Source: Alistipes sp.
GTDB taxonomy: Bacteria; Bacteroidota; Bacteroidia; Bacteroidales; Rikenellaceae
Reading direction: 5' to 3'
Assembly (NCBI GenBank): GCA_017474235.1
Contig: JAFVIB010000009.1
Span: forward strand, 45,010-109,009
DNA: 64,000 nt
The first letter of the stretch is position 1; each line of letters begins with the position of its first letter. The notes below the pieces were generated by a model. That model worked only from the letters and a program-made list of their open reading frames with translations, was not told the origin of the DNA and made no database searches. Below, piece by piece: positions 2,179 through 59,521 of the stretch. The position numbers were made by a program, and so were the translations under genes.

Positions 2179-2218
2179 AATAGGCTGTCGCAACTTTTTG
2201 TTGGACAGCCTATTGTTG
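2179..2218 (+). terminator. Hairpin terminator after the OmpA-like gene
   Basis: AATAGGCTGTCGCAAC pairs with GTTGGACAGCCTATT around a TTTTT loop, with one bulged base. No strong T-run follows, so termination efficiency is uncertain. Confidence 0.6.
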
Positions 2219-2220
2219 TA

Positions 2221-2323
2221 TAACAAGAGAGATTTCAAGGCTTGCAAAGCCCGAAAAAGCAGAGTTTACTTAAGCGTAAATGAGCATTTTGAGGGCAAGC
2301 GTAACGCAGAAATCACCTTGTTA
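2221..2323. repeat. Nested palindromic element R1 (GCGTAACGC type)
   Basis: Outer arms TAACAAGAGAGATTTC (2221-2236) and GAAATCACCTTGTTA (2309-2323) pair imperfectly. Inside, GCCCGAAAAAGC...GTTTAC pairs with GTAAATGAGC...GAGGGC around a loop reading ACTTAAGC. The right half carries GCGTAACGCAGAAATCACC, which recurs in the remnant at 37894. It lies 17 bases beyond the stop codon of the minus-strand lumazine-synthase-like gene. Same family as the elements near 15.7, 36.6, 53.2 and 57.3 kb. Confidence 0.65.
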
Positions 2324-2340
2324 GGCAGCTTCTTTGTGTA

Positions 2341-2724
2341 CTATGCAAGTTTCTGTGGCTTCCGATCCGTCATCCCATTAGCCTCTTCTGCCATCGAACT
2401 TTGCAGTTGTACCATTCTTATAACCGCGTCACAGTCGAGTGCAGGAGCCACAGTATAGTCTATCGGCATATTCCACTGAATCTGTAAATCGAGCAGTGAT
2501 GAGGCAATTTGTGCATTATACTCACGGCTGATGACAATAGTACAATCCACATCGGTATATTCGGCAAAGAAGAGTGCGCCGAGGGCGAGCTGAAACGATG
2601 GTACATATTTAACAACGACATTCTCGTCCGCGCAACCACTCTGCTTAAGGCAAGTGAGTGCAGACCAAATATCGAGTCCCTGCTCGGCAACAATACCGAC
2701 TTTTATCTCCGATGGTGATATCAT
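2341..2724 (-). CDS. Lumazine-synthase-like (RibH-fold) protein lacking the catalytic region
   Basis: The 127-residue product follows the RibH pattern: IKVGIVAE near the start, a central PSFQLALGALFFAE that resembles the RibH substrate-binding PGSFELP helix, then a dimer-interface-like helix (YNAQIASSLLDLQIQWNMPI). The catalytic His of the family (in the GxxIxGxTxHxD segment) is absent; the matching region reads TIVISREYNAQ. The length is slightly short for RibH (about 150-165). The start is the ATG at 2724; the longer frame from TTG at 2760 would run through a terminator hairpin. I infer a degenerate paralogue or a repurposed fold. It lies downstream of a TPR gene, a neighbourhood where Bacteroidetes often carry ribH (recalled, unchecked). 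Confidence 0.6.
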   Translation of the reverse strand: MISPSEIKVGIVAEQGLDIWSALTCLKQSGCADENVVVKYVPSFQLALGALFFAEYTDVDCTIVISREYNAQIASSLLDLQIQWNMPIDYTVAPALDCDAVIRMVQLQSSMAEEANGMTDRKPQKLA

Positions 2725-2734
2725 AACTTGTAAA

Positions 2735-2766
2735 AAGAGAGTCGAGAGTACTACTCCCAACTCTCT
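2735..2766 (-). terminator. Hairpin terminator or attenuator between TPR gene and RibH-like gene
   Basis: On the minus strand, AGAGAGTTGGGAGT pairs with ACTCTCGACTCTCT (two mismatches) and is followed by TTTTT. The next gene starts only about 10 bases later, so the RibH-like gene depends on read-through or is weakly expressed. Confidence 0.65.
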
Positions 2767-15611: not shown

Positions 15612-15786
15612 GCACCGATTTTATCGTCAGAATTTGTACTCCGCTCACACTCTGCACCATTTTGTTGTCAAAATACGGTAGATGCAACGCTCGGCAAAAA
15701 TACCCGCGAAGGGTAGTACTGTGCGTACGACCCTTTGCGGGTACTTTTTGTTAGCGGCAGCAGGTGCCGTATTTTCACAACAAAAT
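15612..15786. repeat. Nested palindromic element R2 (CGCTCGG/TTAGCGG type) at the end of the hut operon
   Basis: The core is 15659-15786. Outer arms 15659-15680 and 15765-15786 pair over 22 bases with one G-T pair and one C/C mismatch. CGCTCGGCAAAAA faces TTTTTGTTAGCGG, then an inner hairpin (15701-15714 with 15730-15743) has a loop containing AGTACTGTGCGTACG. The right arm includes the first base of the TAA stop of the last gene of the hut run. A second degenerate copy of the left arm, GCACCGATTTTATCGTCAG, lies at 15612. In RNA from the minus strand this would be a long 3' hairpin that could end or protect the transcript. Confidence 0.75.
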
Positions 15787-16112
15787 TAGCCTTTAGAGGC
15801 AATCTGTACTTGCAACCTAAACTCCGCCCCCTCAATATCGGTCTTAAGTCGAATATAGTTGCCGAAGTGGGTAACTTTTACGAAGTGTAAGCCCTTTTCG
15901 GTGATTGGGTTAAAAACTGTACCTTCGTCTGCCCAATGGATGCCGTCGAGGGAGATTTGCACGCGGGCGTTTAGTGTTCCAGAGCCGATAATATCTTCAA
16001 CAAGGATAAAGAAGATGACTTCATCTGCCCAGCCGACCTCGTATGGGTGTGTCTCAAAGCCCTCAGAGAAGGACTTTTTTATCTCTAAGTGTGCTGCATT
16101 AAACTGTTTCAT
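15786..16112 (-). CDS. Small unknown beta-rich protein at the end of the hut run
   Basis: The 108-residue product has no signal peptide. It alternates short strands (VIFFILVEDI, ARVQISLDGIHW, GLHFVKVTHFGNYIRLKTDI) in a pattern like a small beta-sandwich. I do not recognise a named family. It follows the 313-residue unknown gene by 24 bases and probably acts with it. The stop codon abuts palindromic element R2. Confidence 0.65.
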   Translation of the reverse strand: MKQFNAAHLEIKKSFSEGFETHPYEVGWADEVIFFILVEDIIGSGTLNARVQISLDGIHWADEGTVFNPITEKGLHFVKVTHFGNYIRLKTDIEGAEFRLQVQIASKG

Positions 16113-36474: not shown

Positions 36475-36626
36475 TTGCACTCCGTCACTGCCTTGCACCC
36501 ATTTTATCGTCAAAATAGTGCAAATACCACGCTCGGTCGGATTGACAGCGATGGGACATACTCCTGTATTTCCCATTGCGGGCAAGACGATTAGCGGAAG
36601 TAGTTGTGCTATTTTCACGATAAAAT
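36475..36626. repeat. Nested palindromic element R3 (CGCTCGG/TTAGCGG type)
   Basis: Outer arms 36501-36523 and 36604-36626 pair over 23 bases with two G-T pairs and one C/C mismatch at the same place as in R2. ACGCTCGG and TTAGCGG flank an inner hairpin (GCGATGGGA with TCCCATTGC) whose loop is CATACTCCTGTATT. The left flank TTGCACTCCGTCACTG also resembles that of R2. It lies in tandem with R4 in the 400-base gap between the redoxin gene and gcvT, which holds no credible gene. Confidence 0.7.
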
Positions 36627-36633
36627 CCTCATT

Positions 36634-36755
36634 GGTGCTTAGAAGGGTGCAGATGCAAGGCACACAAGAAACCGAGCGCGCAGCATACTAAAGCGTATGT
36701 GAGCAGCTCGGTTATCGTAGTGTAACGCAGCAGGTGCGCTCTTATAAGTGCAAAT
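36634..36755. repeat. Nested palindromic element R4 at the end of gcvT
   Basis: The inner hairpin pairs ACCGAG (36671-36676) with CTCGGT (36707-36712) and CATAC with GTATG around ACTAAAGC. GTAACGCAGCAGGTGCGC on the right matches the right half of R1 and R2 (GCAGCAGGTGC). The outer arms (GTGCTTAGAAGGGTGCAGATGC and the reverse of GCAGGTGCGCTCTTATAAG) pair loosely. The right end abuts the gcvT stop codon at 36755. Confidence 0.6.
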
Positions 36756-37849
36756 TATACGAATGGTAGCTTAACTACCTCCGCCTTCAAAAGTCTGCCA
36801 CGCACCTCAACGGCGATAAGAGTACCTACCTTTGAGAACTCGGTTTTGACATAGCCCAAGCCGATGCCGACGCCGAGGGTTGGAGACATTGTACCTGAGG
36901 TTACGATGCCGATAGAGTTACCGTCGAGGTCTGCGAGAGGGTACTCGTGGCGAGGGATACCGCGGTCAATCATCTTGAAGCCCACGAGCTTACGGGTTAC
37001 GCCCTCAGCCTTCTGCGCTGCGAGCAGGTCACGATCAACGAAATCCTTACCATCAACAAACTTAGTAATCCAGCCCAAGCCTGCCTCAAGTGGCGATGTG
37101 GTGTCAGAGATGTCGTTACCATAGAGGCAGAAGCCCTTCTCAAGGCGGAGGGTATCGCGTGCGCCGAGACCGATATTCTTGAGTCCATACTCCTCGCCGG
37201 CAGCCCAAAGTGCGTTCCACATCTTCTCTGCATCGGCATTATGGAGGTAGATTTCGCAGCCACCTGCGCCGGTATAACCTGTAATTGAGAGGATAGCATC
37301 ACAGCCCGCAACGCTCATTTGGCGGAAGGTGTAGTACTCCATATTCTCAACAGGCTCTGCGCACATCTTCTGGACAATCTTCATTGCCAACGGACCCTGA
37401 ACGGCAAGCTGGCAGATGCGGTCTGAAGCATTCTCAAGCTCGATGCCCTCGCGCATACCGAACTGCTCGCCATACTTGAGGATATGAGCCCAATCCTTTG
37501 CGATGTTTGCTGCATTTACGCAAAGCATATACTTGGTATCGCTGAAACGATATACCAAAACATCATCAACAATACCGCCCTGACCATTCGGCATACAAGA
37601 GTAGAGAACCTTGCCGTCATAAAGTTTTGAGCAGTCGTTAGACATAATACGCTGCAAGAGGGCAAGTGCATTTTCGCCCTTAACCCAAATCTCGCCCATA
37701 TGGCTTACATCAAACACGCCTGCGCCATTACGCACGGTTGCGTGCTCGTCTTTGATGCCTGAAAACTCGATAGGCATATTGTAGCCGGCAAACTCTGCCA
37801 TCTTGGCACCTGCGGCAATGTGATAATCTGTAAACGGTGTAACTTTCAT
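36755..37849 (-). CDS. gcvT: Aminomethyltransferase (glycine cleavage T protein)
   Basis: The 364-residue product has the GcvT signatures [34 protein letters not shown], and [15 protein letters not shown] with the Asp that binds folate. It moves the methylene group of glycine to tetrahydrofolate in the glycine cleavage system. The usual GYTGE motif reads [11 protein letters not shown] here, a Glu to Ala change. No gcvH or gcvP is in the window, so the gene is separate from the other subunits. It follows the GNAT-like gene on the same strand. Confidence 0.93.
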
Positions 37850-48451: not shown

Positions 48452-48525
48452 GGACCCATAGCTCAGTCGGTTAGAGCAGCGGACTCATAATCCGAAGGTC
48501 GTGGGATCATGCCCCTCTGGGTCCA
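48452..48525 (+). tRNA. tRNA with CAT anticodon (elongator Met or Ile2)
   Basis: Acceptor stem GGACCCA with TGGGTCC and discriminator A, D arm GCTCAGTCGGTTAGAGC, anticodon loop CTCATAA (CAT). The CCA end is not encoded. G27 faces A43 in the anticodon stem. The T arm is unusual: GTGGG faces CCCTC with one T-T mismatch, and the loop ATCATGC replaces the usual TTCGANY. I cannot separate Met from lysidine-modified Ile2 without identity elements. No initiator features such as three G-C pairs below the anticodon loop. Confidence 0.9.
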
Positions 48526-53126: not shown

Positions 53127-53302
53127 GCACCGCATTTGTCGTTAGTTTGCACTACGCCCACCACTTGAAACGAATTTTGGATTTTAAGTGCGGGATTTCA
53201 ACGCTCGGCAAAAAAGTGCCGGCGATGGATAGTACTGAAGCGTACAGCCATTGCCGGCACTTTTTGTTAGCGGAAGAAATCACCGCTTAAAATCCAAAAT
53301 TA
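53127..53302. repeat. Nested palindromic element R5 (CGCTCGG/TTAGCGG type) at the end of infC
   Basis: Outer arms 53173-53188 and 53286-53301 are a perfect 16-bp inverted repeat that includes bases of the infC stop codon (53300-53302). Further in, GATTTC faces GAAATC, CGCTCGGCAAAAAA faces TTTTTGTTAGCGG, and AAGTGCCGGCGATGG pairs with CCATTGCCGGCACTT around ATAGTACTGAAGCGTACAG. The left flank GCACCGCATTTGTCGTTAG (from 53127) matches the left module of R2. The whole core can fold as one hairpin of about 130 bases. Confidence 0.75.
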
Positions 53303-53899
53303 ATTCTTCTTTGGCTTCGGCGCCAATATCATATTCATCTTCTTACCCTCCAGCGTCGGCATAACCTCTACCTTTGCGATATCCTCAAGGGCGGTTGCGA
53401 AGCGGAGGAGGAGAATCTCTCCCTGCTCTTTAAAGACGATACTACGACCACGGAAGAAGACATAAGCCTTAACCTTTGCGCCCTCCTTGATAAAGTTCTC
53501 GGCGTGGCGGAGCTTAAAGTTAAAGTCGTGGTCATCGGTCTGCGGACCAAAACGAATCTCTTTGATTACCACTTTAGTCTGCTTTGCCTTAATCTCCTTC
53601 TGCTTCTTCTTCTGCTGATAGAGGAACTTCTGATAATCGACAATACGACATACAGGAGGCTCAGCATTTGGAGAGATTTCGACAAGGTCGAGCTCCATCT
53701 CATCGGCAAGGGCAATAGCCTTTGCGATTGGGAGAACCAGATTTGGCTCAACATTATCGCCTACAACGCGGACTGTAGGTGCTGTAATCTCGTTGTTAAT
53801 GCGGTTTGGATTCTCCTTTGCAGGACGACGACCGCGATTTTGATTTCCCTGTGCATTATTATTCTGCGGACGGGGAGTAAATGGTTTAAAACCAGCCAT
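53300..53899 (-). CDS. infC: Translation initiation factor IF-3
   Basis: The 199-residue product has an N-terminal tail ([20 protein letters not shown]), the IF3-N domain ([20 protein letters not shown]) and IF3-C ([40 protein letters not shown]). It helps select the start codon on the 30S subunit. It follows thrS, as usual in Bacteroidetes, but rpmI and rplT do not follow; the next 200 bases hold only R5 and a promoter for the LuxE-like gene. Start ATG, not the autoregulatory ATT of E. coli. Confidence 0.95.
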
Positions 53900-57193: not shown

Positions 57194-57404
57194 TCCACAT
57201 TTTGGCGTCAGAGCAGTGAAGGGTCGCCATAGGCGAGCCAGCGCTCGGTAAAGTTCAATTAGAACAACCGTAATTTCTCGTCAGAAGGCGTAAGATGTGG
57301 TGCATCACAAAAGAAACCCCTTTGGGATAGTACTAAAACGTACAGCCCAAAGGGGTTTACTTTTAGGGATGTGCCGCAGGTTGCGGCTTATCACGAGAAA
57401 TTAC
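57194..57404. repeat. Nested palindromic element R6 at the end of the methylmalonyl-CoA mutase gene
   Basis: Core arms GTAATTTCTCGT (57270-57281) and ACGAGAAATTAC (57393-57404) are an exact inverted pair that includes the mutB stop codon (57401-57403). The arms continue with TCAGAAG facing the preceding CTTAT bases and the same C/C mismatch as R2 and R3. The inner hairpin AAACCCCTTTGGG with CCCAAAGGGGTTT has the loop ATAGTACTAAAACGTACAG. The left flank has two further cores: CCACATTTTGGCGTCAG (57195) and CAGCGCTCGGTAAAG (57239). This fills the 311-base gap between pdxA and mutB; I see no gene there. Confidence 0.7.
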
Positions 57405-59521
57405 TCGGAGAGGATTTCAAGTATCTTGATAGCCGCCACAGAAATCTTCGAACCAGGACCGAAGATAGCTGCTGCGCCATCACGATAGAGCTGATCGTAG
57501 TCCTGTGCAGGGATTACACCGCCGACAACGACGATGATATCCTCACGACCGAGCTTACGGAGCTCCTCGATAATCTGCGGAACGAGAGTGAGGTGACCTG
57601 CTGCGAGTGAAGATACACCAACAACATGAACATCATTCTCAACAGCCTGCTTTGCAGCCTCCGCAGGGGTCTGGAACAATGGACCCATATCGACATCGAA
57701 GCCGATATCTGCATAACCTGTTGCTACAACCTTAGCACCACGGTCGTGACCATCCTGACCCAGCTTAGCAATCATAATACGAGGCTGACGACCCTCGCGC
57801 TTTGCGAACTCTGCGCACATCTGCTTTGCCTTCTCAAACTCTGCATCCTGCTTCATAGCTGAACTATATACACCTGAAATTGAACGAATTACTGCATTGT
57901 AGCGACCTACAACAACCTCACAAGCGTAAGAGATCTCACCGAGGGTTGCACGAACCTTAGCTGCCTCAACAGCAAGCTCAAGGAGGTTACCCTCACCTGT
58001 CTCAACACACTTAGTAATAGCTGCGAGTGCTGCATCAACAGCTGCCTGATCACGATTAGCCTTAAGCTCATTCAGACGAGCAATCTGGCTCTCGCGTACT
58101 GCTGTATTATCTACAGCGAGAATATCGATTGGAGCCTCCTTCTCAAGGCGGTACTCATTCAGACCTATAATCTTCTGCTCACCTGAGTCGATACGAGCCT
58201 GTGTACGAGCTGCAGCCTCCTCGATACGCATCTTAGGAATACCTGTCTCGATAGCCTTAGCCATACCACCAAGCTGCTCAACCTCCTCGATAAGAGCCCA
58301 AGCCTTATGAGCAATCTCATTTGTCAGGCTCTCAACATAGTATGAACCTGCCCATGGATCTACAGAGCGGCATACATTAGTCTCCTCCTGAATGTAAATC
58401 TGAGTATTACGAGCAATACGAGCCGAGAAGTCGGTAGGAAGGGCGATAGCCTCATCCAATGCGTTGGTATGCAGTGACTGAGTGTGACCCAGAGCTGCAC
58501 CCATAGCCTCGATAGCTGTACGACCAACATTGTTGAATGGATCCTGCTCAGTGAGTGACCAACCTGAAGTCTGTGAGTGAGTACGGAGCGCGAGTGACTT
58601 AGGGTTCTTAGGATTGAACTGCTTAACAATCTTAGCCCAAAGCATACGAGCTGCACGCATCTTTGCAATCTCCATAAAGTGGTTCATACCGATAGCCCAG
58701 AAGAATGAGAGGCGTGGTGCGAAGGCGTCGATAGACATACCTGCGTTGATACCGGCACGGAGATACTCAAGACCATCTGCAAGGGTATATGCAAGCTCAA
58801 TATCGGCAGTAGCACCTGCCTCCTGCATATGGTAACCTGAGATAGAGATTGAGTTGAACTTAGGCATATTCTTTGAAGTGTACTCAAAGATATCTGCGAT
58901 AATCTTCATAGAGAACTTTGGAGGATAGATGTAGGTGTTACGCACCATAAACTCCTTCAAAATGTCGTTCTGAATAGTACCGGCAAGCTGATCGAGAGTA
59001 CAACCCTGCTCAAGACCTGTAACAATGTAGAATGCAAGTACAGGGAGTACAGCACCGTTCATAGTCATTGAAACAGACATCTTGTCGAGTGGAATACCGT
59101 TGAACAGTACCTTCATATCCTCAACAGAGCAGATAGATACACCTGCCTTACCAACATCACCTACTACGCGTGGGTGATCAGCATCGTAACCACGGTGTGT
59201 AGCAAGGTCGAATGCCACAGAAAGACCCTTCTGACCTGCTGCAAGGTTACGGCGATAGAATGCGTTAGACTCCTCAGCAGTAGAGAAACCTGCATACTGA
59301 CGGATAGTCCAAGGACGCATAACATACATAGTTGAATATGGACCACGGAGGAACGGTGCAACACCTGCTGCATAGTTCAGATGCTCCATACCCTCAAGAT
59401 CTGCCGCAGTATAGCCATCCTTGACAGATATCTGCTCGGCAGTAATCCAAGGCTCCTTTACAGCCTCAGTAGTGTGGCATGCGCCACCCTGATATTTCAG
59501 TTCTGAAAATTTAGCTCTCAT
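57401..59521 (-). CDS. mutB: Methylmalonyl-CoA mutase, large (catalytic) subunit
   Basis: The 706-residue product has a TIM-barrel substrate domain ([20 protein letters not shown], and [16 protein letters not shown]) and a C-terminal B12-binding domain with DGHDRG (D590, the DxHxxG motif; His is the lower ligand of cobalamin), then [11 protein letters not shown]. It interconverts methylmalonyl-CoA and succinyl-CoA, used by Bacteroidetes for propionate production. It follows mutA by 12 bases; B12 is also needed by the reductase at the left edge. Confidence 0.96.

Follow-up and report, generated by a model that had tools for sequence, protein, structure and literature searches.

Six palindromic elements (R1 to R6) in a 64,000-nt stretch of an Alistipes-type genome, hereafter the window, are probably non-autonomous mobile palindromes of a superfamily that includes the enterobacterial repeat ERIC, with a + strand fold that is maintained, a stop codon that would be restored and modules that would be exchanged among copies. 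Within Alistipes, the elements are abundant, lie at stop codons, turn over between species and differ there by exchanged modules. The feature maintained is the fold and not the sequence of the stems, as covariation and, in Bacteroidota, an asymmetry between the strands reveal.

Elements in the window

The elements, nested palindromes of 130-150 nt, are present at the 3' ends of minus-strand genes (Table 1). R2 to R6 fold far below dinucleotide shuffles, and R1, whose piece folded alone is weak (z -1.04), yet scores 102 bits with the cross-phylum class II model, which bears out their earlier description as nested palindromes. The proposal that all six form one family stands as to the common boxes and fails as to a single class: R2, R3 and R5 are class I, R1 and R4 class II, and R6 class III, a by-eye name taken from its internal loop. 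The class I model finds R2, R3, R5 and, weakly, R6 in the window, with no match to R1 or R4 at E ≤ 10.

All six elements lie the same way round relative to a minus-strand gene. For R2, R4, R5 and R6 the element end falls at the stop of the adjoining gene, as the earlier note had stated. The final three bases of R2, TTA, are themselves the stop codon. R3 and R4 form a head-to-tail pair, R3 first, of which R4 alone reaches the gene, at the gcvT stop codon. The left leader of R2 we read, from similar left halves elsewhere in the genome, as the truncated left half of an older element.

Table 1. Elements and adjoining genes in the window (positions within the window; z, fold against dinucleotide shuffles)
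Feature	Position	Strand	Evidence and remarks
R1, class II (ERIC-like)	2206..2340	+	model R3 102.3 bits, E 5e-24; row of alignment A4
ORF, 3' end adjoining R1	2341-2760	-	without Pfam match
Leader to the left of R2, interpreted as a truncated left half	15612..15656	+	arm, then CGCTC, then ACACTCTGCACC; sequence itself
R2, class I	15657..15788	+	class I model 140.4 bits; z -10.61
ORF adjoining R2	15786..16112	-	TAA stop coincides with R2 right end; offset -2; ORF list
R3, class I	36499..36628	+	class I model 115.6 bits; z -7.05
R4, class II core within class-I-type outer arms	36625..36761	+	model R3 66.5 bits, E 1.5e-14; z -5.49
gcvT (aminomethyltransferase), R4/R3 at 3' end	36755..37849	-	Pfam PF01571
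R5, class I core, arms of AATTTTGGATTTTAAG type	53171..53303	+	class I model 101.3 bits; z -10.80
infC (IF-3), stop codon at R5 right end	53300..53899	-	Pfam IF3; offset -3
R6, class III, class-I-like arms, different internal loop	57270..57404	+	class I model 47.9 bits, E 2.6e-10; z -10.66
Methylmalonyl-CoA mutase gene, TAA stop inside R6 palindrome	57401..59521	-	Pfam PF01642; offset -3

Copy number and spread within the genus

The host genome (G000; 1.97 Mb, 98.9% complete) holds about 110 distinct class I places of the R2, R3 and R5 type, besides class II and class III elements. These come from a genome-wide covariance-model search of the kind that the earlier note had suggested: the class I model (named model R1, built from 30 copies) returns 132 rows at E ≤ 1, among them single places read on both strands, with 150 of 910 candidates scored. 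R2 as a BLAST query gives 64 matches. The common boxes are likewise real, the pattern CGCTCGG N40-70 TTAGCGG matching the genome 48 times and its reversed control once.

Class I is present in 20 of the 37 genus genomes searched, own included. With at most 55 candidates scored per genome, matches per congener range from 0 to over 50, with at least 30 in 12 of the 37 and none in 17. No class I match occurs in the 24 genomes searched from other families. Scanning named genomes for the pattern yields at least 116 stretches; among the 80 matches listed, 78 belong to Alistipes or Rikenellaceae MAGs, mostly ruminant, and the other two, in Anaerolineae and Halothiobacillus, look like chance and were left out of later counts.

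Tandem arrays are present, as are truncated left halves (L239, L240, L247, L256, L279) followed by a short TTGCACC-type linker and then a complete element. The own-genome stretches contain neither isolated right halves of this linker-joined kind nor autonomous copies with a gene between two halves, only the truncated left ones. A second, degenerate repeat of TTAGCCATTGGCTA / GGCTAATAGCC-like units fills gene spacers of relatives, sometimes beside hairpin elements, and is located in L452, L477, L196, L502 and other intergenic stretches.

At the Rfam gathering score no element is matched in the window, 20 of 29 order loci, 20 of 28 phylum loci, L562 or L564; the matches at those loci are tRNAs and one sRNA (ES036), all outside the element, and below the gathering score there are four matches in six loci. 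A tRNA gene at 48452-48525 is the sole Rfam match of the window at that score. The literature searched, with subscription journals mostly outside it, gave no description of these Alistipes elements and no link of ERIC to Bacteroidota.

Fold and compensatory change

The class I fold is a single long hairpin whose outer arms lead to an internal loop, in which CGCTCGGC faces GTTAGCGG, followed by an inner arm and by an apex around GTAC. Among the copies of one genome, both sides have changed in 38 of 52 pairs; 88.8% of cells are paired, versus 70.6% when shuffled, with a covariation score of 0.458 versus 0.150. For class II, 30 copies from 29 Bacteroidales genomes reach 95.0% paired cells (67.8% shuffled), a score of 0.673 (0.181) and 37 of 41 compensated pairs, and a 60-copy cross-phylum alignment 91.9% (61.8%), 0.727 (0.189) and 40 of 41, figures that lean towards structure because both class II alignments were fitted to it. 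The latter alignment (A6) combines seven copies from the genus Alistipes, 26 from other Bacteroidales, 20 from other phylum loci and seven proteobacterial ones.

Sliding the partner columns by 1-3 positions gives covariation scores of only 0.08-0.15 in both class II alignments and of 0.10-0.16 for the class I alignment. The apical stem has a G-U pair at its base that persists in 28 of 30 and 55 of 60 class II copies. The arms thus vary and yet stay self-complementary, as had been noticed from the six copies, with compensatory change in the class I, class II and cross-phylum alignments.

Position at stop codons

Among 106 elements from fetched stretches and the window, 84 have no class I element to their right, and 81 of these have a gene neighbour; R3 is counted although R4 follows it, the tandem-neighbour filter having been applied to the fetched stretches and not to the window copies. 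The right neighbour presents its 3' end in 68 of the 81 and its 5' end in 13, some neighbours possibly being wrong because ORFs were called by length only. A stop codon lies within -13..+3 of the right end in 45/81 and within -13..+25 in 61/81, compared with 5.3% of random intergenic ends within -13..+3 (20,289 draws). The left side shows no preference.

The named loci, taken from the best 150 of 165 matches and comprising 105 places (98 with a neighbour), show a right-hand 3' end in 83/98 and a stop codon within -13..+3 in 48/98; stops within -13..+25 in this set are TAA in 47 of 55, versus 991 of 1725 ORF ends. Class II across the order has a weak bias (30 loci, one own, 27 with a neighbour; 3' end in 19/27, p 0.05). 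At the phylum loci, nearly all from the second class, the right neighbour presents its 3' end in only 15/28, and there is thus no orientation bias there.

The right end often abuts the TA of the stop codon, and on the left a C before ATTTT is frequent. In G000, the element at gene 10 is positioned between two operon genes and supplies the stop, and in the relative G003 a new element follows a TGA stop apparently donated by an older element. Templated copying of stop-codon bases into the far arm, where the third base matches TAA in 26/35, TAG in 7/16 and TGA in 4/4, was not adopted because the set is small and mixed with other palindromes.

Strand asymmetry of the fold

The + strand, antisense to the adjoining gene, gives the better fold in 98 of 104 own copies and 81 of 82 named copies. 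In the 60-copy class II set it does so in 50, with 182 G-T versus 61 A-C cells. Class I has 94 G-T versus 20 A-C cells on the + strand (66 versus 20 minus one nearly invariant pair), a count that favours G-T because the structure was derived from this strand. A strand-neutral arm-to-arm alignment retains the excess, with 495 G-T versus 216 A-C in own copies and 412 versus 112 at named loci; in the outer arms alone it is slight in own copies (179 versus 160) and 138 versus 70 in named ones. The + strand also folds better at 21 of 28 phylum loci, and seven proteobacterial stretches, folded with their flanks, divide into four for + and three for -. The better + strand fold and the G-T excess thus indicate that the functional form is probably + strand ssDNA or antisense RNA rather than an mRNA 3' UTR; outside Bacteroidota this is less well supported.

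Turnover and module exchange between species

Orthologous gene ends were compared with modules classed by eye, not all genes being located in all genomes. Several congeners show ordinary terminators at the stop codon of the methylmalonyl-CoA mutase gene, and others class I, II, III or other palindromes. Gene 8 carries different modules in G000, G028, G029/G003 and G006 and none in G030, and gene 15 is filled in all five genomes read, the module being of class I, of class III or a class II core. Flanks and outer arms at gene 13 are common to G000 and G006, around inner modules of class I and class III, respectively, and three further genomes are empty. Genes 3, 6 and 7 are empty in several relatives over the roughly 190-210 nt read.

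One class I copy (L003:1470-1601), with left and right arms of different types and an unpaired outer stem, is likely a recombination product; together with the tandem arrays and truncated left halves, it fits repeated insertion or exchange. Neither a target duplication nor a filled/empty pair with both flanks shared was obtained, and insertion is therefore deduced from presence and absence at orthologous stop codons. The earlier suggestion of a mobile or REP-like family at gene 3' ends accordingly holds for a mobile palindromic family, given 0 to over 50 class I matches per congener, empty or differently filled orthologous sites and compensatory change; it is not supported in the strict RAYT sense of REP-like, the transposase family Y1_Tnp having no match in 61 genus genomes.

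The same data bear on whether the elements might instead be host 3' UTR structures, either ribosome termination structures or mRNA stabilisers, selected after stop codons and spread by gene conversion without being mobile. Their position exactly after stop codons and a sense strand that also folds well (mean -51.1 kcal/mol) agree with this, as do two reports: stop-adjacent structures control re-initiation in E. coli (PMC7518266), and REPs within 15 nt of stops can lower translation (PMC12306157). The better fold and G-U excess on the antisense strand of Bacteroidota copies, the orthologous gene ends of close species that lack an element in the roughly 190-210 nt read, and the 17 of 37 genus genomes without a class I match all argue against it, and we regard it as unlikely. 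A conserved transcript-end structure, the other possibility raised earlier, is not supported as the primary explanation: the antisense strand of Bacteroidota copies mostly folds better with more G-U, ordinary terminators follow some elements or occur by themselves at empty sites, and close species have different elements at the same gene end.

Class II beyond the genus and the link to ERIC

Of 149 genomes searched in the order, 41 carry class II; all but one of these 41 lie beyond the own genus, the 40 being spread over 36 other families. Class II is absent from the one listed own-family genome of another genus. Across the phylum, 25 of 198 genomes are positive at E ≤ 1e-4, 23 of them from one family of another class. 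The element core from this family has matches in 5375 of 5426 E. coli genomes, at 1 to 4 places each (median 2), along with 12 plasmid-collection and 4 phage-collection records from Escherichia, Klebsiella, Salmonella, Aeromonas and Comamonas, several of which are megabase replicons. NZ_OL790696.1 and NZ_CP141089.1, of 4.8-4.9 Mb and labelled plasmids, look like chromosomes.

Model R3, a covariance model of 60 cross-phylum class II copies from which ERIC was excluded, finds E. coli ERIC at full length in a 7.3-kb search with filters off. Three records at two loci are recovered at E about 2e-6 to 3e-5 (ybhJ-ybhI, 31.9 bits; pgk-fbaA, 32.0 and 27.6 bits), the next best match scoring 9.3; the narrower class II model R2, with default filters, does not find ERIC. 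By these model matches, class II is related to ERIC in sequence-structure. Model R3 matches neither class I nor class III in the window at E ≤ 1; these are tied to class II only by shared arms, apex and site, which leaves their descent from ERIC hypothetical.

At ybhI, the start of ERIC and the TAA stop are at most one base apart and the orientation is the same, and at pgk-fbaA its right neighbour is the fbaA start and not a converging stop codon. The + strand of ERIC folds better at both loci (-71.2 versus -62.0 and -58.6 versus -52.5). Class II elements lie up to about 10 nt from a converging stop in K. aerogenes (dnaN), Salmonella (arylsulfatase) and Comamonas. In E. coli the distance to the ucpA stop is about 49 nt, and at pheM-pheS and yjdI the element stands before a gene start; the Aeromonas record is unannotated at its element. 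The ERIC-like element of Klebsiella aerogenes (L571:1455-1588) is positioned between the dnaN stop and recF, and that of an E. coli replicon (L566:1460-1598) in the pheM-pheS spacer, near the pheST leader.

Candidate mobilising enzymes and carriers

RVT_1 occurs in 20 of 61 genomes and is absent from G000 despite its about 110 copies and 98.9% completeness, so a reverse transcriptase was rejected. Three exact-pattern scans of viral_contigs gave 0 matches. A BLAST search of the phage collection with a second-class element yielded four records: two are contigs of Salmonella, and the other two (OR845546.1 and OR851270.1), phage fragments some 2 kb long, contain the second-class core and may be host fragments. 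R1 has a single weak match of 34 nt to plasmids, in a Staphylococcus aureus record.

G000 encodes five Phage_integrase genes, four of which were scanned: one XerD-like, one XerC-like and two others. In integron attC sites, the antisense strand folds and the gene stop lies at the site. Sites of this kind, where a tyrosine recombinase acts on the folded bottom strand at the 3' ends of genes, have the same topology as the elements, and the XerD-like protein passes NF040815 ('site-specific tyrosine recombinase/integron integrase') at 225.6 versus a cut-off of 220. That protein scores higher as XerD, however, and the four scanned recombinases reach 146, 113, 56 and 47 against the 265-bit cut-off of TIGR02249, on which an integron integrase was rejected for four of the five. 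The adjoining genes named are dispersed housekeeping genes and the boxes are internal rather than terminal, leaving attC-like sites improbable.

Bidirectional intrinsic terminators are a shade less credible still. In some inner hairpins (R2, R5) the GC stem is indeed preceded by an A tract and followed by a T tract, whereas other inner modules carry the T tract on the wrong side (GTTTTT...AAAAAG); by eye, a T tract after the GC stem in the direction of the gene is not general, being absent in several inner modules, and hairpins resembling ordinary terminators come after elements or are present by themselves where a site is empty. REPs mobilised by RAYT (IS200/IS605-type) transposases, likewise palindromic, abundant and intergenic, are a very remote prospect, the Y1_Tnp Pfam model matching 0/61 genus genomes versus 5/14 controls, on which this origin was rejected, and the elements being 130-150 nt long.

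Discussion

Under the preferred reading of non-autonomous mobile palindromes, the + strand forms a long hairpin whose unpaired boxes and apex are conserved, and a putative trans-acting factor would recognise this folded strand. Insertion would then account for the position at stop codons. Elements are seen at that position and supply stops; were they inserted there, their bases would complete or supply the stop, so that the gene survives. Inner hairpins and outer arms differ among copies in the manner of an exchange, by a route we can only presume, and such exchange would place different modules at the same stop codon in different species. Counter-points are the 13 of 81 own copies that face a gene 5' end, the one of two ERIC loci off a converging stop codon, and the absence of a mobilising enzyme among the matches to Y1_Tnp (61 genomes), RVT_1 (G000) and TIGR02249 (four of the five G000 recombinases). 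More tentatively, and against our own expectation, insertion could be aimed at functional stop codons in their own right, independently of the surrounding DNA sequence. Targeting would then be linked to translation termination or to the RNA that is exposed at the stop, and the ERIC superfamily would extend over both Bacteroidota and Pseudomonadota.

Beyond what the earlier note described, the analysis brings tandem arrays, truncated left halves, relatives from other phyla and a class I total of about 110 places. It places ERIC, a familiar enterobacterial repeat, in a cross-phylum superfamily with deep compensatory evolution, and identifies a genus in which related elements abound and turn over fast, so that a mobilising factor can be sought there. 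If the reading is true, an element that ends at and restores stop codons would be an unusual harmless insertion beside essential genes, and such elements would be a possible source of gene-end structures.

REP / BIME sequences with RAYT are likewise short palindromes repeated between genes, some of them near stop codons; the elements here are much longer and vary with strong compensation, and no Y1 transposase was found in the 61 genus genomes. The ribosome termination structure, as described in PMC7518266, is a stable structure directly after stop codons too, but is an mRNA property of single genes, whereas here a repeat family folds mostly better on the opposite strand. Four palindromic RNA candidates of 80-132 bp, mostly or entirely from Bacteroidetes (HMP2_4078, 4205, 1065 and 1032), are alike as Bacteroidetes palindromes when compared by description only, and differ in that three of the four are predicted terminators in their report (PMC8040213).

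ERIC (IRU / RU-1, 127 bp) differs from the elements here in that theirs are highly varied, swapped arms and that model R3 detects neither class I nor class III. The TA termini and duplication listed for ERIC in PMC2229807 are not seen at the left side of the elements, and a 2007 paper describes the transfer mechanism of such repeats as not elucidated (PMC2759123). ERIC nonetheless shares with them a full-length imperfect palindrome of similar length in gene spacers, AAGGC and AACGC-like boxes, an apex of the form GGAG-stem-loop-stem-TGA and a + strand that folds better.
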